NCBI RefSeq assembly: GCF_009858245.1
Contig: NZ_VMSB01000001.1
Span: 1,612,001-1,676,000 of the forward strand
Source of the DNA: Ornithinibacter aureus
GTDB lineage: Bacteria; Actinomycetota; Actinomycetes; Actinomycetales; Dermatophilaceae
DNA length: 64,000 bases
Direction of reading: 5' to 3'
The notes beneath the pieces are model-generated. The model was given only the letters and a program-made list of their open reading frames with translations. It was not told where the DNA came from and ran no database searches. The position numbers and the translations under genes are program-made. This document shows positions 50,475 to 57,095 of the stretch, piece by piece (position 1 is the first letter of the stretch; each line of letters begins with the position of its first letter).

Positions 50475-50491
50475 AAATGAGGGGGTCCGGG

Positions 50492-51646
50492 ATGCCGGGA
50501 AAGAGGTCCTTCGGGTCGATCCGCCGACTGAGCTCAGGTCGCTACCAAGCGCGGTACACCGGTCCTGACTTGCAGACGCACACAGCCCCGGAGACGTTCA
50601 CGGCCAAGATCGATGCCGAGGCTTGGCTCGCTGCCGAACGGCACCTGAGCGAAGACCCGGCGAACTGGCGGGCTCCGAAGGTGCGGCTGGAGCAGGAGTA
50701 CGACCGTCGTGCCCGGCTGCGGCGCTTCACCTTCGGACCGTACTCAGAGGACTGGCTCGCGCATCGGGACCTCGCGGCGAGCACACGGAATACCTACGCA
50801 CAGCTGCTCAAGCATCACCTTCTTCCAACGTTCGCCGACGTCCCGCTATCGGAGATTGACCGAGCGCTCGTCGCCACCTGGTATCGACGCGTCGGAGCCG
50901 GCAGGCCGCACGCCCGGAAGCACGCCTACGACCTTCTTCGCAACATCCTCAACATGGCCTTGGATGACGAACTGATCGATCGCAACCCGGTGCACATCCG
51001 CGGCGCAAGCAACGTCAAACGCACGGGTACGACTCAACCCGCGTCCCTTGACGAACTCGAGGCCCTTGCCGAGGCGACCCCTGAGCGGTACCGGCTCATG
51101 GTGCTTCTCGCGGCGTGGTGCGCCCTGCGCAAGGGTGAGCTGTCCGAGCTGCGCCGCAGCGACGTGGACACCACGCAGTGGGTCCTGAGAGTGCGGCGAG
51201 GCGTCGGTTTCGTCCCGGGCCGCACCGTGGTCAAGGACCCCAAGACCCAGGCGGGTAAGCGCGACGTCGCTATTCCAGAACATCTCGTGCCGATGGTTCG
51301 CGAACACCTCCTTCGACATGCCCAACAAGGAGGTCAGGGGCTGATGTTTCCCTCAGCACGTGGTGAGCACCTGCGGACGTCCGCTATCGGTCGCTGGTAC
51401 TACCCAGCCCGTGAGGCCGCCGGACGACCTGACCTTCGCTTTCACGACCTCCGCCATACCGGCGCTGTCCTCGCGGCTCAGTCAGGTGCAACGTTGGCGG
51501 AGTTGATGCACCGCCTCGGCCACACCACTCCCGCAGCGGCGATGCGTTACCAGCACGCCGCAGCGGAGCGCGACCGCGAGATAGCCCAACGCATGTCGAA
51601 GCGCTACCGGGAACACGTGCAGGCGAGACCATCGGACTGCACCTAA
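50492..51646 (+). CDS. int: Tyrosine site-specific integrase
   Basis: A 384-residue phage/ICE-type integrase. An N-terminal AP2-like arm-binding region (FGSIRRLSSGRYQARYTGPD) precedes a core-binding domain and a catalytic domain. The conserved residues are R213 (ALRKGEL), H318 and R321 (FHDLRH), the later histidine in LMHRLGH, and nucleophile Y353 (AMRYQH). All are present, so it should be active. The ATG at 50492 has GAGGGGG upstream; an ATG at 50477 is in frame but lies against the repeats. It marks the left end of the acquired region. Confidence 0.95.
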   Translation: MPGKRSFGSIRRLSSGRYQARYTGPDLQTHTAPETFTAKIDAEAWLAAERHLSEDPANWRAPKVRLEQEYDRRARLRRFTFGPYSEDWLAHRDLAASTRNTYAQLLKHHLLPTFADVPLSEIDRALVATWYRRVGAGRPHARKHAYDLLRNILNMALDDELIDRNPVHIRGASNVKRTGTTQPASLDELEALAEATPERYRLMVLLAAWCALRKGELSELRRSDVDTTQWVLRVRRGVGFVPGRTVVKDPKTQAGKRDVAIPEHLVPMVREHLLRHAQQGGQGLMFPSARGEHLRTSAIGRWYYPAREAAGRPDLRFHDLRHTGAVLAAQSGATLAELMHRLGHTTPAAAMRYQHAAAERDREIAQRMSKRYREHVQARPSDCT

Positions 51647-52165: not shown

Positions 52166-52507
52166 TCAGTGCGCAGCGTTGTACGCGTCCTGAACGTCCT
52201 GGCTGATCCGGCCGCGGTCGCTGACCACACGGCCGTTCTCACGTGCCCAGGTACGGATCGCCTGAGTCTGGTTGCGGTCGGACTTGTTCTTGGAGCCACC
52301 ACCAGAGCGCGCACCGCGACCGCCGGTGTTGGTCGCAACGTCGGTGTACTTCTTGACGGCGGCGTAGAACTGACCGGCCTCTGCTTCGGTCAGATCCATC
52401 TGATACGAGGTCGAGCCGATGCTGAACTTGACCGTCTCACCCTCGCCGTCCTTGATGTCCTTGCCGCTCAGATCGCTGACAAGTTGCTCAATCACACGCT
52501 TCGCCAT
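52166..52507 (-). CDS. lsr2: Lsr2-family nucleoid protein
   Basis: A 113-residue Lsr2, the actinobacterial functional analogue of H-NS that bridges AT-rich DNA and silences acquired genes. The N-terminal dimerisation domain is VIEQLVSDLSGKDIKDGEGE with FSIGSTSYQMDLTEAEAGQF. The C-terminal DNA-binding domain is IRTWARENGRVVSDRGRI with the AT-hook-like RGR. The ATG at 52505-52507 with GAGGAGC upstream is chosen. Being inside the element, it may be a mobile-element copy that quiets the element, distinct from a housekeeping lsr2 elsewhere. Confidence 0.93.
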   Translation of the reverse strand: MAKRVIEQLVSDLSGKDIKDGEGETVKFSIGSTSYQMDLTEAEAGQFYAAVKKYTDVATNTGGRGARSGGGSKNKSDRNQTQAIRTWARENGRVVSDRGRISQDVQDAYNAAH

Positions 52508-52774
52508 ACTTGCTCCTCGTTGTTGAAGATGATCCAAAGCACGGTACACGCCGAGACGATGGATTCGACCGTCAGTGCACAACGCCCATCACAGAACGTC
52601 TCGGCGTTCCACGGCTGATGGTCGGATAAGAACGTGCCATCCAGAAACCAGCCTTTACAAGCGCGAGGACTCACGATGATGATCGGTTCACGTTTCCGGA
52701 ACCGAGAGCCGCATTCTGCGAGAACAGGGACGATGAGGGACTGCGTCACCTATCGGTGCAGCAGTCCCATGTTG

Positions 52775-53992
52775 TCAAACGGTTTGGGGCAGCTTTTCGC
52801 GAGTGGGCGGGGTGAGTTCGAAGACTCGGTTGTCGCGTAGCAGTGCCCACAGGACGTCGACGCGGCGGCGGGCGAGGGCGATGAGCGCTTGGACGTGTCC
52901 GTGGCCTTGTCCGCGCTTCTTGAGGTAGAAGTCGCGGTTGGGACCCTCGCGCATCATCGAGGTTTGCGCGGACAGGTAGAACACCCGGCGGAGCTTGCGT
53001 GAGTAGCGCATCGGGCGGTGCAGGTTCCCGGTGCGACGACCCGAGTCGCGCGGGACGGGGACCAGCCCGGCCGCTGAGGCGAGGTGTCCGGCGTCGACAT
53101 AGCGGGACAGGTCGCCGGCGGCCGCGATGAGCTCGGCGCCCAGGATCGTGCCGATGCCGGGCATCGACTCGATGATCTGTGCCTGGGGGTGGGCGTGGAA
53201 GGTGTCACCGATCCGAGCGTCCAGGACGCGGATGCGCTGGTCGAGCTCGAGCAGGGCGGTGGCGAACTCCGCGACGATGCTCGCCGCGACGTCCTGGCCG
53301 GGGACGGTGGTGTGTTGCGCGTTGGCGGCCTTGACCGCGGCCGTCGCGATCTGCTCGGCGCTTCGGACCTTGCGGGCCCGCAGCCACGTCGTCAGGCGAG
53401 CACGGCCACGTGCCCGGATCGCGGCTGGTGCCTGGTAGCCGGTCAACAGGACCACCGCTCCGCGACTGGTCGCGTAGTCGAATTCCCGCTCCAGAGAGGG
53501 GAAGTAGCCGCTGAGCACGTCCCGCAGACGGTTGATCATCCGGACCCGGTCGGCGACGAGGTCTGTGCGGTGGGTGACCAGCAGCCGCAGCTCGGCCACC
53601 AACGTCGCCGGGACGTCCACGGGTGTGAGGTCACCACGCAGCCGCACCGTCTCTGCGATGACGTACGCGTCGCGGGCATCAGTCTTGGCCTCCCCCGCGT
53701 ACGCGGTCGACATCTGGTTGACCGTTCGTCCCGGCACGTACGTCGCAGCCTGCCCATGGGCGCTCAACAGGGCCAGCAGCAGGGCGCTGCTGGTGCCAGT
53801 GATGTCCACCGCCCACGACACCTGCTGTGCTCGCGCCAACACTTCGGCGATCGCGTCCAGGATCGCCGCCTCGTCGTTGACGACCTTGCTCGACCACAGG
53901 GTCGAGCCCGCCTCGTCGATCAGGCACACCCAGTGGTGCCCCTTGCCGACGTCGATACCTGCCCAGCCATGGGCGACCTGTTCTGCTCCCAC
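52775..53992 (-). CDS. IS110-family transposase/recombinase
   Basis: A 405-residue IS110 recombinase. The N-terminal DEDD (RuvC-like) domain opens GWAGIDVGKGHHWVCLIDEAG, and AGEAKTDARDAYVIAE carries further acidic residues. The C-terminal Transposase_20 domain has IIESMPGIGTILGAELIAAA. The catalytic serine region follows GLVPVPRDSGRRTGN. The GTG at 53990-53992 has GAGGGAAG upstream. It appears intact. IS110 enzymes use a non-coding RNA made from the element end, and a candidate region lies directly upstream. Confidence 0.93.
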   Translation of the reverse strand: MGAEQVAHGWAGIDVGKGHHWVCLIDEAGSTLWSSKVVNDEAAILDAIAEVLARAQQVSWAVDITGTSSALLLALLSAHGQAATYVPGRTVNQMSTAYAGEAKTDARDAYVIAETVRLRGDLTPVDVPATLVAELRLLVTHRTDLVADRVRMINRLRDVLSGYFPSLEREFDYATSRGAVVLLTGYQAPAAIRARGRARLTTWLRARKVRSAEQIATAAVKAANAQHTTVPGQDVAASIVAEFATALLELDQRIRVLDARIGDTFHAHPQAQIIESMPGIGTILGAELIAAAGDLSRYVDAGHLASAAGLVPVPRDSGRRTGNLHRPMRYSRKLRRVFYLSAQTSMMREGPNRDFYLKKRGQGHGHVQALIALARRRVDVLWALLRDNRVFELTPPTREKLPQTV

Positions 53993-54200
53993 CGCTTCCC
54001 TCCTCCGCACGGGGTTGGACCAACCTGATGGCCCGAAGAACACCCCGCCGACGGATCCGTAAACAGCGACCAGAACGCACATCTCAATCAGCAGTCAGGG
54101 CGCCCCGAAGGGTCGGACGGCCAATCCACCGGAGCCACCAAGGACGATCAAGGCTCAGCCACATCCGACCCTCCCGGGCCACCCACCAACTTACGGATCG
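53993..54200 (-). ncRNA. Candidate bridge RNA region of the IS110 element
   Basis: About 200 bp without a gene lie immediately upstream of an intact IS110 recombinase. That is where IS110-group elements such as IS621 encode their bridge RNA, whose two loops pair with target and donor DNA. The stretch contains a perfect ACGGATCCGT palindrome and several short stems. The loops cannot be assigned without the empty target site and related copies, so this is positional inference. Confidence 0.35.
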
Positions 54201-54298
54201 AGGCTAAAGCCCGCAGAGCGGCGTGTGTGGACAAGGGACGGCAGATCCGTCCGGCCACGACCTGGCGCAGCCAGGGGAGGAAGCATGCGCGTGGTGGG

Positions 54299-55677: not shown

Positions 55678-57095
55678 GGCTCATCCCAATCGAGGGTGTA
55701 GGAGTTGGGGTCTGAAGCCGCCGGATTCGAGGAGGCATCTGGCGATGTAGTTGGTGAGGTTGCGGAACCCGAGGGCGGAGCCGCGTAGGTGTTCGAGTCG
55801 TCCGTTGATGGCTTCGGTGGGTCCGTTGCTGGTGCCGGGGCGGTCGAAGAAGGCCAGGACGTCAGCGGCTCGGGTCTTCAGGGTCCGGCCGAGTTTGGTG
55901 ACCTCGACCAGCGCGGCGGGCACACCGGTGCTGACGGAGTCGATGAGCTTGACCATCAGCTCGCGTCCTGTCGCGCGGTCTTCGTGCCGGTAGGCGGCGA
56001 TCATTCTCTGGTAGATGCCCCAGGTCGCCTCGACCTGCACGTGCTCGTCTGGCGTGAACAGGGCGGTGAGCCGCTCGGCCTGTGTGTCGGTGAGCAGGTC
56101 AGCGCCGGTGTGCAGGGTCCGCCGGGCCCGGTAGAGCGGGTCGCTCTTGCGGCCGCGGTGGCCGTGCAGGTCTTGTTGGACGCGGCGCCGGCAGGTGTCC
56201 AGGGCGTCCCCGGCCAAGCGCACGACGTGAAAGGGATCCATGACGGTGACCGCGTCGGGTAGTTCCTCGGCGGTGGCGGTCTTGAACCCGTCCATCGCGA
56301 CCACCTCCACAGCGTCACGCCACGCTTGGGGGCGGTGCGCGAGCCAGGTCTTGAACGCCGCCTTGGAGCGGCCCTCGACCATGTCGAGCAGCCGGGCTGG
56401 GCCGGTGCCGTCACGGATCCCGGTGAGGTCGATGATCACGGTGACGTACTTGTCACCGGCCCGGGTGTGGCGCCACACGTGCTCGTCGACGCCGATCGCG
56501 CTGACGCCGTCGAACCGGGCCGGGTCGTCGATCAGGGCGCGTTTGCCCTCGGCCAGGACGGCGTCGTTGGCGGTGTCCCACGCGACCGCCAGCCCTTCAG
56601 CGACCCGGGCCACCGTCAGGTGCGCCAACACGATCGCCTCCAAAGCCCACCGCAGCCCACGCCGCGAGAGCTTGGACCGCGGCTCCGCCGCGGCGGTGGT
56701 GTCTTGGCGCCACACGTGTCCGCAGTGCGCACACCGATACCGGCGGATCGTGAGCACCAGCGTGGTGGGGCGCCACCCGAACGGTTCGTGCGCCAACTCC
56801 CTGGTAACCGTGTCCCGCGGGGCGCCCTCGCAGCCGCAGCGCCGGCACCACTGGTCCGGCTCCACGACCCTGCACGCGATGACCGCCCGGTCAGGCTCCA
56901 CCCGCTGCCCCACCGCCTCGAGGCCGAGCTCGTCAAGGCGGGCGAACGTGGTCAAATCAGGGCTGGTGAAGGTAGCGTCAGGCACGTCGAGGTCTTCCAG
57001 GTGGGCAGTGTCAGAACTTCTATCCTCGGGAGGCCTCGGCGCCTACCCCGGTACCGACGCGCCGCCCAGCCCTACACCCTCAACTGTGAAGAGCC
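55678..57095 (-). mobile_element. Complete ISL3-family insertion sequence
   Basis: A 1418-bp element. The terminal inverted repeats match 21 of 25 bases (GGCTC at each end, GAGGGTGTAGG inside). It is flanked by GCATAACC on the left (55670-55677) and CCATAACC on the right (57096-57103), an 8-bp target duplication with one mismatch. One transposase gene fills it. The left repeat overlaps the transposase stop codon. Confidence 0.93.
55681..56985 (-). CDS. ISL3-family transposase
   Basis: A 434-residue transposase. An N-terminal zinc-binding region has CRRCGCEG and YRCAHCGHVW, followed by a helix-turn-helix-like segment and the DDE_Tnp_ISL3 catalytic domain. Catalytic acidic residues fall in AIGVDEHVWRH, VVAMDGFKTATAEELPDAV and the C-terminal GPTEAINGRL. 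The sequence is full length with no breaks, so the copy is potentially active. The ATG is at 56983-56985. Confidence 0.95.
   Translation of the reverse strand: MPDATFTSPDLTTFARLDELGLEAVGQRVEPDRAVIACRVVEPDQWCRRCGCEGAPRDTVTRELAHEPFGWRPTTLVLTIRRYRCAHCGHVWRQDTTAAAEPRSKLSRRGLRWALEAIVLAHLTVARVAEGLAVAWDTANDAVLAEGKRALIDDPARFDGVSAIGVDEHVWRHTRAGDKYVTVIIDLTGIRDGTGPARLLDMVEGRSKAAFKTWLAHRPQAWRDAVEVVAMDGFKTATAEELPDAVTVMDPFHVVRLAGDALDTCRRRVQQDLHGHRGRKSDPLYRARRTLHTGADLLTDTQAERLTALFTPDEHVQVEATWGIYQRMIAAYRHEDRATGRELMVKLIDSVSTGVPAALVEVTKLGRTLKTRAADVLAFFDRPGTSNGPTEAINGRLEHLRGSALGFRNLTNYIARCLLESGGFRPQLLHPRLG

Follow-up and report, generated by a model that had tools for sequence, protein, structure and literature searches.

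Bridge RNAs encoded in the left ends of IS110 elements have been known since 2024 and are predicted in 85.7% of IS110-group elements (PMC11208160), ISAar29 being one of the six elements drawn in that study. In IS621 (PMC11208160, PMC11208158), the bridge RNA lies in a long left end (LE), the right end (RE) is short, and the guides of a target-binding loop (TBL) and a donor-binding loop (DBL) flank internal loops. In ISEc21, a member of the IS110 family, the guide RNA (seekRNA) derives from the upstream non-coding region and the target lies inside another insertion sequence, namely the transposase genes of IS3-family elements (PMC11187229). The ends and guides of ISKrh6 of Kocuria rhizophila were not resolved in the paper that describes it (PMC12500396), and we set it beside our element by description only.

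Here, we analysed a 64,000-nucleotide stretch of the Ornithinibacter aureus genome (henceforth the window), which contains an element that, taken as a whole, is very likely an IS110-group insertion sequence with a bridge RNA encoded in its left end. The window copy itself is new; the novelty claimed in the initial annotation is nevertheless small, given the share of elements with predicted bridge RNAs and that ISAar29 had already been drawn. Going by its name, ISAar29 is presumably also an actinomycete element. The element in the window resembles IS621 in its bridge RNA in a long LE with a short RE, the placing of TBL and DBL guides at internal loops, the guide-to-strand scheme (PMC11208160), an NT core, a circle-junction promoter (here predicted), and a recombinase with RuvC-like and Tnp domains and a catalytic serine. 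It differs from IS621 in its AT core, a target in the terminal inverted repeats (TIRs) of IS1380-family elements, a longer right guide match (about 7 nt), a recombinase of about 405 aa (326 in IS621) with an aspartate where IS621 has E60, a tip-to-TBL distance too short for a 5' stem-loop, provided that transcription starts from the predicted promoter, and the loss of the right end from the window copy. It also resembles ISEc21 in a guide RNA from the upstream non-coding region, a predicted junction promoter and a target inside another insertion sequence; unlike ISEc21, which targets a coding stretch of IS3 elements, it is aimed at an IS1380 TIR, and the host phylum is a different one.

The recombinase gene has the following position:
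52775–53992, minus strand: IS110 recombinase coding sequence, 405 aa, open; identified by PF01548, PF02371 and NF033542 and by alignment to relatives and to IS621 (8wt6).

The reading frame runs from a GTG start (53990–53992) to a stop codon at 52775–52777. Both Pfam domains scored over their cut-offs (PF01548, DEDD/RuvC-like, 167.3 bits; PF02371, Tnp, 72.5 bits), and NF033542 scored 251.6 bits, while the Tas model of TIGR-Tas systems (NF052498) reached 52.4 bits, under its cut-off of 100. A profile alignment to IS621 (PDB 8wt6) placed the catalytic residues at D14, D63, D105, D108 and S317, so that the IS621 set D11, E60, D102, D105 and S241 has counterparts in this protein; D63 is an acid and not a glutamate, which counts as a point against our explanation. 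The window copy is the sole one in its genome. Around it lie a tyrosine integrase (50477–51646), an extra lsr2 gene (52169–52582; 42% identical to another lsr2 in the same genome) and an ISL3 transposase (55681–56985), which suggests an acquired region; no tRNA gene adjoins it.

As the initial annotation had described, the start codon is preceded by about 200 bp of gene-free DNA, and we carried out the alignment of relatives that it had proposed for setting the ends. The alignment of copies from Nocardioides, Janibacter, Propionibacteriaceae, Actinopolymorpha and Streptomyces begins abruptly on the left at [N]TCCGTAAGTT and finishes on the right with TTGACAAnTTCATTGAGA[N]TCC, just past the stop codon. 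This gives a left end made up as follows:
53993–54198, minus strand: left end, non-coding, 206 bp, with the bridge-RNA sequence; set by the sharp similarity boundary in relatives and by covariance model R1.
54038–54197: match to covariance model R1 within the LE, 172.8 bits.
54101–54181, minus strand: TBL, from consensus structure and covariation.
54043–54100, minus strand: DBL, from consensus structure and covariation.

The LE is thus far longer than the RE (about 20 bp past the stop codon in relatives), which is the IS110 layout and rules out the IS1111 group, where the bridge RNA lies in a long RE. In further agreement with the IS110 group, the relatives lack long terminal inverted repeats and, in most copies, have the same core dinucleotide at both ends.

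A covariance fold of the non-coding end, also called for in the initial annotation, bore out its reading of the region as a bridge-RNA locus. RNAalifold on 15 relatives gave two hairpins with internal loops, from which we built the covariance model used to search genomes. The model found left ends in 13 of 396 genomes of the phylum, where 12 of the 14 new loci had an IS110 ORF directly after the match (the exceptions being L109, without a full-length IS110 ORF, and L120, only a partial match), and in 92 of the 247 genomes of the genus of G571, which we read as Streptomyces because one of its loci, L129, has a flank in common with S. roseoverticillatus L020. Across 41 distinct sequences, 91.6% of cells pair in the consensus structure, and 26 of the 42 pairs, in both TBL and DBL stems, have changed on both sides. 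Doubly changed cells numbered 96, compared with 19.1±4.4 in shuffles and at most 30 in slid structures, a comparison in which the alignments (A3 and A4) were fitted to the model and so lean towards it, the slid control uses the same alignment, and related sequences inflate the permutation counts. An Rfam scan returned nothing relevant, and single-sequence folding was unremarkable (z −1.74).

The donor side of the element comprises two guides in the LE and what is left of the right end:
54082–54088, minus strand: left donor guide AUUGAGA; in relatives it matches the right end and changes along with it; its partner is gone in the window.
54055–54063, minus strand: right donor guide UUUACGGAU; its pairing partner is ATCCGTAA at the element tip.
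52769–52778, minus strand: right-end remnant TTGACAACAT; overlaps the stop codon and holds a −35-like TTGACA.
52737–52768, minus strand: 32-bp scar that interrupts the right end; a 24-bp TIR of an IS3-type insertion sequence, joined to the final 8 bp from the opposite end of that insertion sequence.

The inverted pair and the palindrome pointed out in the initial annotation are both present: GATCCGTAA is the element tip (minus strand, 54199–54191), its inverted partner TTACGGATC lies at about 54062–54054, and the palindrome ACGGATCCGT lies at 54051–54060. By itself a 9-bp inverted pair is weak: of 2000 mononucleotide shuffles made from the LE, 479 contained one. Comparison gives it significance, for its two members are the tip and its partner, the right donor guide, which match at 7–8 of 8 positions in nearly all copies of the clade and change in concert (Streptomyces, CTCCGTAA/TTACGGAG; distant relatives, TCCTTAT/ATAAGGA). 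Likewise, the left donor guide and the right-end half-site vary in step, with CATAGAGA in L112, L114, L116 and L122, CATTGGGA in L110, CATTAGGA in L119 and CATCAGGA in L118.

The element had been called intact, which is true of the recombinase ORF and the LE and not of the element as a whole, where the right donor half is missing. Relatives run on past the remnant as TTCATTGAGA[N]TCC; the window copy breaks off 6 bp past the stop codon, at the scar (TTGACAACAT then GGGACTGCTGCACCGATAGGTGACGCAGTCCC), with no donor half-site CATTGAGA farther downstream. The TIR in the scar is complete and belongs to an rve-type (IS3-like) insertion sequence, of which TIR pairs about 1.29 kb apart occur in the same genome and also in relatives. 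The identical 32-bp scar occurs in two genera (window 52737–52768 and L093:1595–1626); we rejected it as a widespread repeat, as it is present in only 2 of 188 genomes of the family. Insertion of the IS110 element into an IS3 TIR was rejected too, given that the outer end of the TIR abuts the truncated right end and that the left flank is an IS1380 tip. Synteny around lsr2 gave no usable empty site in the genus (lsr2 genes 39–43% identical, a short fragment 46%). That the copy might still move by way of a diverged right end is unlikely: its ORF is open, its LE complete, and a TCATCG after the scar faintly resembles TCATTG, but its left donor guide has kept the AUUGAGA of the family, for which no half-site lies downstream, no displaced right end or half-site in right-end context was found elsewhere in the genome, the inserted 32 bp are the TIR of another insertion sequence, and the genome holds no second copy. 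With its far end lost, the window copy is probably stranded and no longer able to move, while its recombinase gene remains open and its bridge-RNA sequence complete.

The target side is read from the TBL, whose 5' stretch reads like the left flank and whose 3' stretch reads like the right flank in reverse complement:
54147–54155, minus strand: left target guide and core, AGCCUUG-AU; pairs at 7/7 positions, one of them G.U, with the left flank AGCCTCG, plus the AT core.
54124–54132, minus strand: right target guide CCGGUGGAU; predicts the right target AT-CCACCGG.
54197–54198, minus strand: left core dinucleotide AT; the core is NT in relatives, and only the left core survives in the window.

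With the right target lost, the insertion of the window copy can be checked on its left half only. Comparing the loops with flanking DNA, as the initial annotation had suggested, gave agreement on both sides among relatives: over 7 positions, left guides matched left flanks at a mean of 4.70 (3.16±0.22 in shuffled pairings) and right guides matched right flanks at a mean of 5.64 (3.31±0.26), neither value being reached in 20,000 shuffles, again with related sequences inflating the permutation counts. The core was equal at both ends in 53 of 60 copies (CT 36, AT 11, TT 6), and its second base is T in nearly all copies; IS621 prefers CT and tolerates AT, TT and GT (PMC11208158). We had also considered a core TC, which was dropped since the preceding base covaries with the right donor and right target guides and so favours NT. 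Among the body-identical copies of L154–L164, the left half of the target is set back from the core by an extra 0 or 1 nt, which amounts to natural slack in the guide-to-core register. In L017 (2240–2340) the 5' half of the TBL is partly duplicated, with two different left guides.

Agreement between guides and flanks could in principle have been inherited from few insertions whose descendants kept their flanks, and it is true that window-group copies have similar targets and that the G1019 copies have whole flanks in common, so that they add nothing to the test. We consider this very improbable, as body-identical copies within each of three genomes (G1055, G1109 and G1000) have unrelated flanks that agree in the guide-matching bases only, and many guides across Streptomyces match different flanks. 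Equally improbable is that the LE, which does hold a promoter-like tip as well as a ribosome-binding site, does nothing more than serve the transposase mRNA as promoter and leader, with ends that serve as protein–DNA sites and a protein that picks the target, since loop stretches change in step with each copy's foreign flanks, on opposite strands, and compensatory stem changes would be left without explanation. The sharp ends, the covarying structure and the fit of the guides to target and donor at natural insertion sites strongly support the bridge-RNA reading, and the gene-free DNA beside the recombinase almost certainly encodes a guide RNA.

The predicted target AGCCTTG-AT-CCACCGG coincides with the TIR of IS1380-family elements, and the left flank of the window copy preserves one:
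54195–54207, minus strand: left target, the tip of an IS1380 TIR (TTAGCCTCGATCC); 13/13 identical to the IS1380 TIR at G000:C1:2926284.

The genome holds five perfect TNAGCCNNGATCCACCG sites, which are unoccupied IS1380 TIR targets. Two, inverted and separated by 1.7 kb, enclose a 472-aa ORF, and it is to this pair that the 13/13 identity applies; another two lie 3.4 kb apart; and the fifth has a partner 1.7 kb away with one mismatch, enclosing the same kind of ORF. The enclosed ORF is an IS1380-family transposase (NF033539, 1.6e-107). Several relatives sit in a TIR with an inverted partner 1.62–1.64 kb away (L019, 17/18, and L027, 16/18, 0/300 shuffled targets each; L009, 14/18, 3/300), with IS1380-type ORFs in the right flanks of relatives so inserted, and the right target guide CCGGUGGAU fits both the IS1380 TIRs of the genome and the right flanks of relatives. 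The remaining part of the IS1380 element is absent in the window, in line with a deletion at the scar. Judged from these matches, the predicted RNA of the window copy would steer the element into the ends of IS1380-family elements of the same genome.

A putative promoter would form when the element ends are joined:
54188–54193, minus strand: −10-like TAAGTT at the element tip; with TTGACA of the RE it would form a circle-junction promoter.

In near relatives the joined ends read TTGAC[N]-17 nt-TAAGTT. The tip-to-TBL distance is 15–18 nt in the window clade and nearby Streptomyces copies, and 34–51 nt in distant relatives, several of which (L111, L112 and L116) form a hairpin there. From the predicted promoter, the RNA would start at the TBL itself, and we infer that the window clade would then have no room for a 5' stem-loop. 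In IS621 this stem-loop is structurally conserved among orthologues, and its deletion weakens binding and lowers recombination only slightly (PMC11208158), so a natural bridge RNA without it is plausible.

Building on the ends, the structure, the guide–DNA matches, the target class and the broken right end read from the sequence, we propose the following route for transcription, RNA binding, strand exchange and the order of events. Joining of the ends in the excised circle would create a sigma70-like promoter (TTGACA-17-TAAGTT), from which the LE would be transcribed; the TBL would pair with both target strands around the AT core and the DBL with the joined element ends, whereupon the recombinase (RuvC-type acids and S317) would exchange strands. 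Aimed by its guides at IS1380-family TIRs, the window copy would have inserted into one of them, and a later IS3-type insertion and deletion would have taken away its right donor half together with what remained of the IS1380 element.

Beyond the window, the guides of the Streptomyces group differ, and their targets read, on the opposite strand, as a Shine-Dalgarno-like GGAG, a short spacer and a start codon; left flanks at L124–L183, L013–L015 and L020 place Streptomyces copies between GGAG and the start codon of genes in the opposite direction. The ORF from that start codon stays open for at least 100 codons at 22 of 33 sites, against 41% when other start-like codons of that strand are taken, and in 8 of 10 cases chosen by hand the first positions of a Pfam profile match no more than 27 residues from the start. 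The case that this group targets Shine-Dalgarno/start-codon sites is good but not conclusive, and the element tip (CTTACGGAG on the gene's strand) would there restore GGAG before the start codon. In a sister lineage (Streptomyces sp. CT34, L018; S. chartreusis plasmids, L203–L205 and L207), the left end holds two complete bridge-RNA units in tandem:
L018:1972–2480 and L203:987–1500 (also L204, L205 and L207): tandem bridge-RNA left ends, plus a third, partial unit upstream.

The tandem units have the same donor guides and different target guides, and the gene-proximal unit alone matches the flanks at all four distinct insertion sites read. We find the balance even for a broader picture in which a compact lineage without a 5' stem-loop has been re-aimed between IS1380 TIRs (the window group) and Shine-Dalgarno/start-codon sites (Streptomyces, where the tip keeps GGAG), with the tandem-RNA lineage (L018, L203) as its sister.

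As its right end is lost, the window copy is useful solely as a source of recombinase and RNA, and intact relatives that are laid out alike are candidates for compact tools in high-GC hosts. For the family, the analysis defines an actinomycete group of bridge recombinases whose ends, guides and cores are known, along with dozens of natural insertion sites, and in which the guides appear to have been naturally re-aimed.
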